Origin: a bacterium
Lineage (GTDB): Bacteria; SZUA-79; Acidulodesulfobacterales; Acidulodesulfobacteraceae
Length of the DNA stretch: 64,000 bases
Reading direction: 5' to 3'
Assembly (NCBI GenBank): GCA_021850985.1
Contig: JAJZJX010000006.1
Location: 1-64,000 of the forward strand
Positions 275 through 49,322 of the stretch are shown piece by piece. The position numbers and the translations under genes are program-made. The number at the start of each line of letters is the position of its first letter. Positions within the stretch are counted from its first letter, which is position 1. The notes under the pieces were generated by a model. The model was not told where the DNA came from. It searched no databases and worked only from the letters and a program-made list of their open reading frames with translations.

Positions 275-2116
275 TTGAATTTTCAAGAAAAAATTAGAAA
301 TATAGCAGTAGTTGCCCATGTCGATCACGGCAAAACGACGCTTATCGACAAAATGTTAAAAGAAAGCATAAGCAAAAGAGACTTTGAAGCTCTTTCCGAA
401 AGGGCGATGGACAGCGACGAATTAGAAAAAGAAAGAGGAATAACCATTTTATCGAAGTGCACCGGCATTAAATATAAAGATTACAGAATTAACATAGTCG
501 ATACTCCCGGTCACGGAGATTTCGGCAGCGAAGTAGAAAGGGTACTTGCAATGGTGGACGGAGTTCTGCTTCTCGTCGACGCTTTCGACGGACCTATGCC
601 TCAGACCCGGTTTATTCTTAAAAAATGTTTTGAATACAACCTTCACGTACTGCTTGTCATTAATAAAATAGACAGACCCGGGGCGAGACCGGAAGAAGTG
701 CTGGAAATGGTTTACGATCTTTTTTTAGAGCTCGGCGGGGAAAACGTAAATTTGGATTTTCCGGTAATTTATGCTTCCGCAAAAGAAGGTTACGCTATTA
801 AAGATTTAAAAGTTCAAGGCGAAGAAAGATTTAAAGACAAGCTTAATCCTCTTTTCGATGCGATAATAGATTTTATACCCCATCCTCCTATACTTAATAA
901 ACCGGAACTTGAATTTTTAGTCACTAGCATAGGCCACGACGATTTTCTCGGAGCTACGGCTATAGGCATAGTTAAAGCCGGAAAGCTCAAAGTAAACGAT
1001 TCGGTTTATCTTTATAACGCCAAGGATGAATTGATAAAAACAAAACCCAACAAGATTTTTCTGTTCGACGGATTAAAAAGAACTGAAACCGATGAAATTA
1101 ACGAAGGAGACATCGCCTTAGTGGCAGGTTTAACGGGCGTAAATGCAGGAGATTATATAGTTAACGACAAACCGATAGCGCCTCTTCAGAGAATAAAAAT
1201 AGACGAGCCTGTAATACTCGTTAATTTTATAGTAAACAAAAGCCCTTTCTGCGGAAAAGAAGGAAAATTGGTAACAACGAGACAGCTAAGGGAAAGACTC
1301 TTCAAAGAAGTGTCTAACAACGTCGGATTAAAAGTAGTCGAAACCGGAGACGAAACGGTATTCGACGTTTACGGCAGGGGGCTTCTTCATCTTTCGATTT
1401 TAATAGAAAAAATGAGAAGGGAAGGTTTTGAATTTGCCGTTTCTAAGCCTAAGGGCGTGATAAAAGAGATAGACGGCAAAAAAATGGAACCTTACGAGCT
1501 TTTATACATTACGGTAAAAGACGAATTTACCGGAGGAGTTCTTGAAAGGCTTTCTTCCATGAAAGGCAATCTTCTCGATATGACTAAAGACGATAACGGC
1601 AATACTTACCTAGAATTTGTCATACCTTCGAGAAGCATAATGGGATTTCATAATGAATTTCTCACTATGACTAAAGGTACAGGCACTATGAATCATAATT
1701 TTTATAAATTCGACGAATATGCTTTCGATATTTCCCCAAGGAAAAACGGAGTAATGATTTCAATGGAAAACGGAGAAGCCAATTCCTACGGTTTGTTTAA
1801 TCTGCAGGACAGAGGAAGCCTTTTTGTTTCCCCGCAGGACGAAGTTTACGAAGGGATGTTAATAGGAATACATTCCAAGCCCGGAGATATAACTGTAAAT
1901 CCCTGCAAGAAAAAACAGCTTACTAATATGAGGTCGAAGGCGTCGGACGAAATGATAACGCTTACTCCGCCTATAAAACTGTCGATAGAATATGCGTTAG
2001 AATTCATAGAAGACGACGAGCTTGTGGAATTTACGCCAAAGTCTATACGTCTTAGGAAAAAAATATTAACCGAAAACGACAGAAAAAAAGAATCAAGGGG
2101 ACTCCTTAAAACTTGA
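275..2116 (+). CDS. typA: Translational GTPase TypA/BipA (TTG start)
   Basis: AHVDHGKTT, DTPGHGDF and NKIDRPGA GTPase motifs; full-length BipA architecture; RBS ggagg upstream. Confidence 0.96.
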   Translation: MNFQEKIRNIAVVAHVDHGKTTLIDKMLKESISKRDFEALSERAMDSDELEKERGITILSKCTGIKYKDYRINIVDTPGHGDFGSEVERVLAMVDGVLLLVDAFDGPMPQTRFILKKCFEYNLHVLLVINKIDRPGARPEEVLEMVYDLFLELGGENVNLDFPVIYASAKEGYAIKDLKVQGEERFKDKLNPLFDAIIDFIPHPPILNKPELEFLVTSIGHDDFLGATAIGIVKAGKLKVNDSVYLYNAKDELIKTKPNKIFLFDGLKRTETDEINEGDIALVAGLTGVNAGDYIVNDKPIAPLQRIKIDEPVILVNFIVNKSPFCGKEGKLVTTRQLRERLFKEVSNNVGLKVVETGDETVFDVYGRGLLHLSILIEKMRREGFEFAVSKPKGVIKEIDGKKMEPYELLYITVKDEFTGGVLERLSSMKGNLLDMTKDDNGNTYLEFVIPSRSIMGFHNEFLTMTKGTGTMNHNFYKFDEYAFDISPRKNGVMISMENGEANSYGLFNLQDRGSLFVSPQDEVYEGMLIGIHSKPGDITVNPCKKKQLTNMRSKASDEMITLTPPIKLSIEYALEFIEDDELVEFTPKSIRLRKKILTENDRKKESRGLLKT

Positions 2117-2210: not shown

Positions 2211-3038
2211 ATGAGAATTAAAATTTGCGGCGTACAGATGTTTCCTTCCGCGGATATACATTCATCAGCTGTTAAAGCTATAGATTTCTTGGCTATGGCG
2301 GCTAAAAATAAAGCCGATATAGTCTGCTTTCCTGAGCTTTTTCTAATGAACTGGTTTTTGCAGAATACTTCTATCGACGATATGGAGGCGCACTATAAAA
2401 CGGCCGAAGATTTAAGCGGAAAAACTATAAGTTTATTCAGGGAACAGGCAAAAAGATTTAATATCGTAACGATAGTTCCTTTTTTTGAAAAATTAGAAAA
2501 CAAATATTACAACAGCTCCGCCGTTATAGATGAAGAAGGCGGGCTCATAGGCGTTTATCGCAAGATACATCTTCCGGAATTAGAATATTATAAGGAAAAG
2601 TCTTATTTTTCGAGCGGCGCCGAAATTCCCGTTTTTAAAACTAAATACGGCAATATCGGAATACAGATGGGCTGGGATAATTTTTACCCTGAATCGGCAA
2701 GGATTTTGGCGCTTAAAGGAGCGGATATTATTTTTGCTCCGACGGCATCGGCATTTAATACTAACGGTAAATGGTTTTTGTCTATATCGGCTACGGCTTT
2801 TCTTAACGGTTTATATATCTTAAGGGTTAACAGGGTAGGCAGGGATAAGCCTCTGGATTTTTACGGAAAGTCTTTTTGCGTTTCCCCCGACGGAAGCATA
2901 ATAAACGATTTTGCCGGAATAAACGAATGCGCCGTTATTTATAACATCGACACTAATGAAGTCAAATCGGCGAGAGAAAACTGGCCGTTTATTGAAAACC
3001 GCGCTAAGACATCATATAAAGATATCGTTAATTATTAG
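2211..3038 (+). CDS. Nitrilase/carbon-nitrogen hydrolase superfamily protein lacking the catalytic Cys
   Basis: CFPELF (Glu) and YRKIHLPE (Lys) motifs present; the usual ICWDxxxPE motif reads MGWDNFYPE. Confidence 0.85.
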   Translation: MRIKICGVQMFPSADIHSSAVKAIDFLAMAAKNKADIVCFPELFLMNWFLQNTSIDDMEAHYKTAEDLSGKTISLFREQAKRFNIVTIVPFFEKLENKYYNSSAVIDEEGGLIGVYRKIHLPELEYYKEKSYFSSGAEIPVFKTKYGNIGIQMGWDNFYPESARILALKGADIIFAPTASAFNTNGKWFLSISATAFLNGLYILRVNRVGRDKPLDFYGKSFCVSPDGSIINDFAGINECAVIYNIDTNEVKSARENWPFIENRAKTSYKDIVNY

Positions 3039-3044
3039 AAAGAC

Positions 3045-3629
3045 GTGAAAATAAATTTTTTAGACCTGAAAGAATTAAATTCGATGCCTTCGGGAAATAA
3101 CGGAGGGAACGATATTCTGACGGAATATCTTATCGGCAGGATGTTCGATATACACATGGAGTCTTCGCAGACCGTATGGGACAGAAAAATGTTTGACGAA
3201 GAGCTGAAACGCGAAGGCTCGGGATTTTTAATATGCTATTCCGATTCAGGCGATGCAGACGGCGGCGATAACCGGCTTGCTTTAAAAAAATTCACCGAAA
3301 AAGACATAGATCCCGCCTTAAAAATAGGATTGCAATCGTTAATCGCCGGTTTTTTTATTTATTATAACGTTTTAGACGAAATGCATATACTCGATATAAC
3401 GGTTTCTAAAGAAATACAGTCTAAAGGCGTAGGCTCTTTAATGTTAAGCACGGTAATAAAAAAAAATTCGGAAGCAGCCGGAATAAAATATTTCTTTCTA
3501 GAAGTCAGAACCTCAAACATTACCGCAATTAATTTATATAAAAAATTCGGTTTTAAGATATTTATGTTAAGAAAAAACTATTATGAAGACAACGGAGAAG
3601 ACGCTTTATGCATGGTAAAAGAATCGTAA
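3045..3629 (+). CDS. GNAT family N-acetyltransferase, RimI-like
   Basis: VSKEIQSKGVGSLML...FLEVRTSNITAINLYKKFGFK is the RimI/GNAT core. Confidence 0.85.
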   Translation: MKINFLDLKELNSMPSGNNGGNDILTEYLIGRMFDIHMESSQTVWDRKMFDEELKREGSGFLICYSDSGDADGGDNRLALKKFTEKDIDPALKIGLQSLIAGFFIYYNVLDEMHILDITVSKEIQSKGVGSLMLSTVIKKNSEAAGIKYFFLEVRTSNITAINLYKKFGFKIFMLRKNYYEDNGEDALCMVKES

Positions 3630-5617
3630 GCGAAAAATGTCTCGTTACCGTAAATAGAAAAATAAAAGATACCGAAGGCACTTATATTTTAAGAATAAAA
3701 GACGATTTTATCGCGGCAAATTTTAAGCCGGGGCAGTTTGTTATGCTTAAAATTAACCCGGACGGACTAAACCCCCTTTTGAGCAGGCCTTTTTCGATAT
3801 TCAATAAATTTAACGATTCGGAATTTGAAATTTTATACAGGGTTTTCGGAAAAGGCACGGAGATATTAAGCAATATTAAGGAAGGAGCCTATTTAGACGT
3901 TACCGGTCCTTTGGGAAACGGGTTTAAAAACGAAAACGCCGGCATTAACGTTCTGATCGCCGGAGGCATAGGCATAGCGCCCCTGCATACTATTCCGCTT
4001 TTTTTAGGAGAACCCTTATCTTCGGCAGTTCAATCTCCCGCTCAAGACAAAGAATCCGTAAGTTGCGGCAAAACCGTTTTATACTACGGAGCGAAAAAAG
4101 CCGAAGAACTTTATTTCAGGCACAGCATTCACGCTATGTTCGACGAAGTTTACTTTGCTACCGACGATGGCTCTTTCGGCTATAAAGGCAATGTCGTAGA
4201 TTTGCTTTACGAAAATATAGGCGCTTATAAAAATTCGGAAAATACGTCTTTTTATGTCTGCGGACCTAAACCTATGCTTAATTACGTAATTTCCAAATTT
4301 TCCGCGGACGGGCTTTCCGGAAAACTGCAGGTATCTCTCGAAGAAAGTTTCGGATGCGGCATAGGCGTATGTTTAGGATGCGTAGTGAAAACTAATATAA
4401 ACGAAGGCATAACTTCGGACGGCGGCGGCAAAAGCGTTGAATTTCAGTATAAAAGAGTATGTAAAGACGGACCCGTTTTTTACGCCTCCGAAATTTTCAT
4501 TCCGGAAAATGAAAATAACCCCGATTCTATCAGCAAAACCGGAAAAACAGGTAAAGACGGCGGCACCGATTCTGGCCAGCCATTGCTAACGCAGGGAATC
4601 AGTCATTCCGATGCCGGCTCGGAGCAGTCATTGCGAGCAGAGCGAAGCAATTCCCGCACGTATTCATCGGCTATAGACGGTGTTCAGAATATTATCCCCG
4701 ACGTTTCCGTAAAACTCGGAAAATTAAAATTGGACTATCCCGTTATGCCTGCCTCAGGCACATTCGGATACGGAGAAGAATTTTTCGATATTATAGAATA
4801 TAATAATTTCGGAGCTCTCGTCACTAAAGGAATTTCTCTTAATCCGTCTAAAGGAAACGAAATGCCGCGAATTTGCGAAACTTCATGCGGCATGATTAAT
4901 TCGATAGGACTTCAGAACGTCGGATACGATAAATTTATAGAAGCTAAAATGCCGTTTTTAAAAACTTTAAATAAACCCGTAATAGTTAATTTTTACGGAA
5001 GCAGCATAGAAGAATATGTCATACTCGCAAAAAAATTGGCGGAAACTGAAGGTATAAGCGCCATAGAAGCAAACATATCATGTCCCAATATAAAGGAAGG
5101 CGGCAGGTCTTTCGGTTCCGATCCTGAAGTAGTTTATGAACTCGTTTCTTCCGTAAAGGAAAGCACCGCCGGCAAAATTCCGTTAATAGTAAAGCTGACT
5201 CCTATGGTTGCCGATATATCCTTTATAGCGGAGGTTTGCGAAAAAGCCGGAGCGGATATTATTTCTTTAATAAATACTCTGCCTGCGGCAAGCATAGACA
5301 TAAAAACCAAAAAATTTAAACTTAGCAGGGGATACGGCGGACTTTCGGGAGCGGCAGTTAAACCCGTAGCTATTAAACTTGTAGGCGATGTTTATAACGC
5401 AGTAAGAATCCCTGTTATAGGCATGGGCGGCATAAGTTCATGGCAGGATGCCGCAGAATTTTTTCTTGCAGGAGCTGCGGCGGTAGCCGTCGGAACCTAC
5501 TCTTTCGTAAATCCAAAAATAATACCGGAAATTTCCGCCGGATTAAAAAATTATTTGGCGGAAAACGGATTTGACGGTATTTATCAAATAATAGGATTGG
5601 CGCACGGCAGGCGCTGA
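3608..5617 (+). CDS. Fused dihydroorotate dehydrogenase electron-transfer subunit (PyrK) and catalytic subunit (PyrD, class 1B)
   Basis: N-terminal FAD/NAD-binding and CGIGVCLGC 2Fe-2S PyrK domain; C-terminal PyrD (NISCPNIKEGG, GMGGISSWQDAAEFFLAGAAAVAVGT). Confidence 0.92.
   Translation: MHGKRIVSEKCLVTVNRKIKDTEGTYILRIKDDFIAANFKPGQFVMLKINPDGLNPLLSRPFSIFNKFNDSEFEILYRVFGKGTEILSNIKEGAYLDVTGPLGNGFKNENAGINVLIAGGIGIAPLHTIPLFLGEPLSSAVQSPAQDKESVSCGKTVLYYGAKKAEELYFRHSIHAMFDEVYFATDDGSFGYKGNVVDLLYENIGAYKNSENTSFYVCGPKPMLNYVISKFSADGLSGKLQVSLEESFGCGIGVCLGCVVKTNINEGITSDGGGKSVEFQYKRVCKDGPVFYASEIFIPENENNPDSISKTGKTGKDGGTDSGQPLLTQGISHSDAGSEQSLRAERSNSRTYSSAIDGVQNIIPDVSVKLGKLKLDYPVMPASGTFGYGEEFFDIIEYNNFGALVTKGISLNPSKGNEMPRICETSCGMINSIGLQNVGYDKFIEAKMPFLKTLNKPVIVNFYGSSIEEYVILAKKLAETEGISAIEANISCPNIKEGGRSFGSDPEVVYELVSSVKESTAGKIPLIVKLTPMVADISFIAEVCEKAGADIISLINTLPAASIDIKTKKFKLSRGYGGLSGAAVKPVAIKLVGDVYNAVRIPVIGMGGISSWQDAAEFFLAGAAAVAVGTYSFVNPKIIPEISAGLKNYLAENGFDGIYQIIGLAHGRR
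4570..4660. repeat. Interspersed 'ttgcgagc..gcgaagcaat' repeat inside the PyrK-PyrD linker
   Basis: tcattgcgagcagagcgaagcaattcccgc at about 4628-4657; related sequence at 53150-53200. Confidence 0.6.
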
Positions 5618-48008: not shown

Positions 48009-49322
48009 ATGACAGAAAAAGAATATGCGCTAAAAAACGTCGGCAAGAATGTTTATTCAGAAGGAACGGCTTATGCCGCTTCTAAGGAAAATATAGAACA
48101 GGAAAATCTTAAAAAAAATATTATTAACGGCAAAGCGGTTATTCTGCACAACAAAGATAAGAATAAATTCGTCGGAATAGGAAAAGGCTTGACTACTAAA
48201 ATAAACGCAAGCATAGGAACTTCCACCAACCATATAAACATAGAAGAAGAGATAAGAAAAGCCGTTATAGCCGAAAAATCGGGAGCGGATACTTTAATGG
48301 AACTCAGCGTAGGCGGCGATTTAGACCTTATAAGAAGGGAAGTCCTTGCGAATACGTCCCTTCCGGTAGGAACCGTTCCGCTATATCAGGCATTCAGGGA
48401 GGCGATAGACGCTTATAAAAATCCAGTAAAAATGCCCGAAGAATTAGTTTTCGACGTGATAGAAAAACAGTGCGCCGACGGGATTTCGTTTATGGCTATC
48501 CACTCTGGTTTAAACATGATGTCTTTGGAAAGATTAAAAAAGCAGTCGTACAGATATGCGGGTCTCGTTTCAAAAGGCGGAGCCTACATGATTGCGTGGA
48601 TGATTGAAAACAACAAAGAAAATCCATTATACGAAAGATTTGAAGACGTGCTTAAAATTTTAAAAAAATACGATACCGTGCTCAGCCTCGGCAACGGTTT
48701 GAGGGCGGGAGCGACGGCGGATTCTTTCGACAGGGCGTATATGCAGGAGCTTCTTATAAACTGCGAACTTTGCGATATTGCAAGAGATTACGGAGTTCAG
48801 GTTATAGTCGAAGGTCCCGGGCATATTCCCATTGACGAAATAGAAGCGAACGTGAAAATTCAAAAGAAAATGTCCGGAGATGCCCCTTTTTATGTTTTGG
48901 GTCCTTTGGTAACCGACGTGGCTGCAGGTTACGACCATATATCATCGGCTATAGGCGGAGCCCTTTCGTCTTCTTTCGGGGCCGATTTTCTTTGTTACGT
49001 TACTCCGGCCGAACATCTTGGTCTGCCTTCCGAAGAGGACGTGGCTATAGGCGTAAAATCGGCAAAGATTGCGGCTCATATAGGAGATATGATAAAATTA
49101 AAAAAGACGGACGACGACTTAAATATATCCAAAGCCAGAAGAGACGTTGACTGGGAGGGACAGTTCAGACACTCTATAGACCCTGAATATTCAAGGAGTA
49201 TTTTTGAATCTAAAAATAATAAGGACGAAATAGCAGGCTGCAGTATGTGCGGCGAGTTCTGCGCTCCTTTAAGGGTTAAAAAATATTTTAGATATGAAAT
49301 CAAACAAGGAAAAAAAGCATAA
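48009..49322 (+). CDS. thiC/bzaF: ThiC-family radical SAM enzyme; likely 5-hydroxybenzimidazole synthase (BzaF) by context
   Basis: ThiC-family core ASIGTSTNHINIEEEIRKA, EGPGHIPIDEIEANV, YDHISSAIGGA; C-terminal CSMCGEFC; follows cobU-cobT-cobS-cbiA. Confidence 0.9.
   Translation: MTEKEYALKNVGKNVYSEGTAYAASKENIEQENLKKNIINGKAVILHNKDKNKFVGIGKGLTTKINASIGTSTNHINIEEEIRKAVIAEKSGADTLMELSVGGDLDLIRREVLANTSLPVGTVPLYQAFREAIDAYKNPVKMPEELVFDVIEKQCADGISFMAIHSGLNMMSLERLKKQSYRYAGLVSKGGAYMIAWMIENNKENPLYERFEDVLKILKKYDTVLSLGNGLRAGATADSFDRAYMQELLINCELCDIARDYGVQVIVEGPGHIPIDEIEANVKIQKKMSGDAPFYVLGPLVTDVAAGYDHISSAIGGALSSSFGADFLCYVTPAEHLGLPSEEDVAIGVKSAKIAAHIGDMIKLKKTDDDLNISKARRDVDWEGQFRHSIDPEYSRSIFESKNNKDEIAGCSMCGEFCAPLRVKKYFRYEIKQGKKA

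Follow-up and report, generated by a model that had tools for sequence, protein, structure and literature searches.

Across the nitrilase superfamily, a Glu-Lys-Cys triad has been described as conserved in all members (PMC9913352), and catalysis passes through a covalent intermediate formed on the Cys, which sits at a strained nucleophile elbow (PMC4812014). In the N-carbamoylputrescine amidase (AguB/CPA) of Medicago (MtCPA; PDB 5h8i-5h8l), Glu48, Lys121 and Glu132 were assigned roles as active-site residues, Glu187 was shown to set substrate length and charge, and the C158S variant still bound putrescine while its reactivity was strongly diminished (PMC4812014). A catalytic Cys to Ala mutant of Nit1 likewise kept its tumour-suppressor activity and its binding to Fhit (PMC9913352), an example of a nitrilase fold working by binding without its Cys, albeit as a laboratory mutation of a mammalian enzyme and not as a natural lineage. 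Loss of a catalytic residue from a fold that is kept under selection is a general feature of pseudoenzymes (PMC10211241). Neither nitrilases nor amidases are mentioned in the main text of that review, and a search of the openly available literature returned no natural Cys-less pseudoenzyme of the nitrilase superfamily.

Here, a Cys-less member of the superfamily was analyzed in a 64,000-nucleotide stretch of bacterial DNA (the window). The gene, termed nit (positions 2211-3038, plus strand), is an open reading frame for 275 aa whose sole Pfam match is CN_hydrolase (PF00795; score 164 bits, cut-off 23.2; E 5e-48; residues 8-255). Positions 2661-2690 read ATA CAG ATG GGC TGG GAT AAT TTT TAC CCT and encode IQMGWDNFYP, which places Gly154 (GGC, 2670-2672) at the site of the Cys nucleophile within the motif IQMGWDNFYPE. 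Ungapped alignment with the MtCPA motif IGVAICWDQWFPE pairs Gly154 with Cys158, confirming the replacement reported in a preliminary description of this DNA. The same description had noted that the catalytic Glu and Lys were present, and this also holds: Glu42 (FPELF; 2334-2336), equivalent to MtCPA Glu48, is invariant in 29 of 29 orthologues, and Lys118 (YRKIH, followed by LPE; 2562-2564), equivalent to Lys121, is replaced by Gln in only one other genome. A second active-site glutamate, Glu129 (YYKEKSYF; 2595-2597; MtCPA Glu132), is present besides. A migrated nucleophile was ruled out by comparing Cys columns across the 29 orthologues, as the Gly forms carry no new Cys and no other Cys of nit aligns at the nucleophile position. 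Cys 6, 39, 223 and 240 of the window protein are found in 29, 28, 29 and 28 of the 29 orthologues, respectively, and since they are thus near-universal in Cys-bearing orthologues too, none of them represents a new nucleophile. For the alpha-beta-beta-alpha fold, the AlphaFold2 model was of too low confidence to be informative (mean pLDDT 63.5), and by sequence nit strongly matches solved nitrilase folds. Judged by descent and sequence, nit is a member of the nitrilase superfamily, having the profile match, Glu, Lys and second Glu, but it is not a member in the sense of a Cys hydrolase.

MtCPA is the best PDB match of nit (E 4e-38), and the corresponding family model TIGR03381 is its best NCBIfam match. 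In addition to Glu48, Lys121 and Glu132, the pocket walls P125, Y130, W159, A183 and W277 of MtCPA are conserved in nit, whereas Cys158 is Gly. Nevertheless, an identity as N-carbamoylputrescine amidase was rejected. The nit product scored 189 bits and two Cys-bearing orthologues 205-209 bits against the TIGR03381 equivalog cut-off of 410, the substrate-tail residue Glu187 falls in an alignment gap, and agmatine deiminase (PF04371) was detected in none of 30 phylum genomes by a search that was positive in 5 of 14 controls. Of the kinship to N-carbamoylputrescine amidase and NitFhit proteins proposed earlier, the superfamily relationship therefore stands and the AguB identity, which failed on all three counts, does not.

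To place the replacement in the phylum, all genomes of a 30-genome sample were searched for the nit orthologue, which was found in 29 and was missing from one that is 59% complete (G024). Gly154 occurs in 13 species, all from the genus of the window, with GGC in 12 and GGA in one (G026). Cys (TGC or TGT) is found in the other 16 genomes, namely two from the window's genus (G013 and G015) and every member of five further genera. When public genomes were searched at the protein level, 13 relatives with 69-95% identity were returned, 11 with Gly and two with Cys. The Cys-bearing phylum orthologues (e.g., L013, L015, L031 and L035) are 60-75% identical to the window protein and share its neighborhood and pocket, differing by the Cys at residue 154. 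On this comparison, Cys is the ancestral state and the direction of change is from Cys to Gly, because 16 other orthologues, including two in the window's own genus, carry Cys. The Gly154 carriers belong to a group of uncultured bacteria, probably from acid-mine habitats.

The genes around nit are shared by both forms. Upstream lies a bipA/typA GTPase gene (275-2116, plus strand), and downstream, starting 6 bases past the nit stop codon, a GNAT N-acetyltransferase gene of the RimI type (3045-3629, plus strand), which is overlapped by a gene for a fused PyrK-PyrD protein (3608-5617, plus strand) that comprises the electron-transfer and catalytic parts of dihydroorotate dehydrogenase B. The spacing of nit, GNAT and pyrKD in the window is consistent with a single operon. 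Genomes of both the Gly and the Cys type keep the order bipA-nit-GNAT-pyrKD as far as their contigs reveal it; in G029 the GNAT gene directly follows nit at the contig end, and in G027 the examined stretch ends with nit, with GNAT and pyrKD on another contig. PyrK and PyrD are joined in one reading frame by a low-complexity linker, and this long open frame occurs in most, though not all, genomes of the phylum. Between bipA and nit, an AT-rich inverted repeat of 21 bp (2134-2178; 95% complementary, 3-nt loop) was observed, and the RNA fold of 2117-2210 reached -22.4 kcal/mol (z -5.6). In the closest species (L003-L005 and L018) the region upstream of nit holds related AT-rich sequence, which was not seen elsewhere in the genus; the repeat may be an operator or a hairpin. 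Elsewhere in the window, a ThiC-like gene (48009-49322) has a counterpart in most phylum genomes as a second ThiC-like gene with about 46-50% identity. Only one other nitrilase-type match was found in the genome, a stand-alone glutaminase half of NAD synthase that adjoins nadE, retains its Cys and is 31% identical to nit. Backup by a close paralogue was consequently rejected, as a protein this distant is no replacement. Glutamine-dependent NAD synthase itself appears to be split on L002 into the gene for this nitrilase-type glutaminase, which retains its Cys, and a nadE-like gene beside it (1438-2328 and 543-1427, minus strand).

That Gly154 is a sequencing or assembly error, or the mark of a dying pseudogene, has a negligible probability. 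Its one point of support is that the genomes are metagenome assemblies, whereas 13 species agree in separate assemblies, which makes a base-call error untenable and answers in the affirmative whether close relatives share the Gly. Decay was ruled out by the same relatives together with an intact reading frame and a dN/dS of about 0.11. The gene is open and full-length in all 13 Gly species, in line with the earlier observation that the rest of the frame is intact.

Selection on the Gly form was examined using pairwise NG86 estimates, and median dN/dS among Gly species was 0.112 (range 0.05-0.18), compared with within-genus values of 0.074 (genus g2) and 0.099 (genus g3) for the Cys form. The Gly form of nit is thus under strong purifying selection across the whole protein, pocket included. 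Relative to its GNAT neighbor, nit has not accelerated, as the ratio of nit to GNAT distances is similar in Gly pairs (0.65) and Cys pairs (0.68-0.70). For nit relative to BipA, Gly pairs give a somewhat larger distance ratio than Cys pairs (4.1 versus 2.4-3.2), and a mild relaxation of selection is possible on this measure. Mapping from MtCPA gave 11 pocket residues (42, 48, 118, 122, 127, 129, 155, 157, 158, 179 and 258), and every one of them is invariant in the Gly species, in which 111 of 275 sites vary (hypergeometric p 0.003); this test is descriptive, as the family conserves such sites in any case, and it shows that they were not released when Cys was lost. Gly species are set apart from all Cys species by just two columns, residue 154 and the conservative site 113 (I/V versus A/T/L). 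Residue 195, which is Asn in 16 of 16 Cys proteins and A, N, S or T in Gly species, is possibly a site released after Cys loss. Against the turnover of fourfold sites, the Gly codon itself is kept and varies only synonymously (GGC/GGA); for a neutral codon at the fourfold-site rate of the clade, the probability that the first two positions remain unchanged is about 0.003.

The number of losses was addressed with gene and species trees. In the nit tree all Gly forms are grouped, with support of 88/94 when column 154 is included and 76/50 when it is removed. Conversely, in a six-gene tree (2496 columns) the Cys-bearing G013 is nested among Gly species, and an AU test on these data disfavored a single Gly clade (p 0.019); an earlier three-gene species tree was too weak for placing G013. 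The nit data reject neither arrangement. One loss followed by transfer, two losses, and a loss with regain in G013 are all possible histories.

Taken together, nit of the 13 Gly species has lost a catalytic residue from a gene that is intact and under selection, a combination expected of a pseudoenzyme. We consider it probable, from sequence comparison, that the Gly form is a retained pseudoenzyme that would keep the ability to oligomerize and to bind a ligand of the amide or carbamoyl type but could no longer form the thioester intermediate. The ancestor would have been an amidase- or carbamoylase-like nitrilase, probably active, kept vertically beside bipA, rimI and pyrKD throughout the phylum, and a single-base change from TGC to GGC in one genus presumably removed its nucleophile. 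Glu42, Lys118, Glu129 and the pocket would still bind an amide or carbamoyl group, and Gly, which suits a tight and strained nucleophile elbow, should be tolerated there and may even be stabilizing. Since the covalent thioester (acyl-enzyme) could not form without Cys, nit would act by binding and not by turnover, either as a ligand sensor or as a structural or regulatory partner of its own oligomer or of a neighbor's product. An interaction with the RimI-like neighbor is only a guess from gene position.

The preliminary description had left a choice between a retained pseudoenzyme and altered chemistry, and the fixation of Gly in 13 species, strong purifying selection and a conserved pocket support that pair of readings. 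The conserved Glu, Lys, Glu and pocket are just as compatible with some chemistry being kept in the Gly form. Catalysis without Cys might then proceed through water activated by Glu/Lys or through a nucleophile from outside (sulfide or a small thiol, for instance) in the vacated cavity, as would be allowed by a mapped pocket that is invariant in Gly species, Glu42, Lys118, Glu129 and Trp155 included. We regard this as unlikely, given that a search of the openly available literature returned no nitrilase-superfamily enzyme that functions in the absence of its Cys, that substitution of the same Cys in MtCPA C158S strongly cut reactivity (PMC4812014), and that no compensating change besides residue 113 has become fixed in Gly species. 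Its more specific version, in which free sulfide or a small thiol is borrowed as nucleophile and positioned by Glu42, Lys118 and Glu129 in the cavity left by the change from Cys to Gly, appears very improbable; the idea of sulfide use is speculative and comes from the reported sulfur-rich environment of Ca. Acidulodesulfobacterales. If this version were true, a co-substrate from the environment would stand in for the enzyme's own Cys on a nitrilase fold.

A different possibility is that the nit family is mainly non-catalytic across the phylum, with catalysis dispensable even in Cys-bearing members. Along with the loss of Cys154 in 13 species, the orthologue in G028 (L042) keeps its Cys and has Gln (CAA) at the equivalent of the catalytic Lys118, which on its sequence is a second, independent loss of a triad residue in the orthologous family, although it rests on a single assembly. 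All 30 genomes lack an agmatine deiminase that could feed an AguB-like reaction, and the position beside bipA, rimI and pyrKD is conserved, which would also fit. Cys is nevertheless kept in 16 orthologues over all six genera, 15 of them with Lys, so catalysis is apparently selected there, and a mainly non-catalytic role of the whole family is therefore improbable. Between the two halves of the earlier reading, a retained pseudoenzyme is better supported than altered chemistry by the sequence evidence.

A profile match by itself would annotate the Gly154 genes as amidases, which calls for caution with similar assignments. Should two independent losses prove true, they would point to selection for Gly. 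Because this natural lineage has lost the nucleophile alone and has close Cys orthologues at the same locus, nit provides a clean Gly/Cys pair, about 75% identical, that is suited to testing the transition from enzyme to pseudoenzyme and the role of the nitrilase fold without catalysis.
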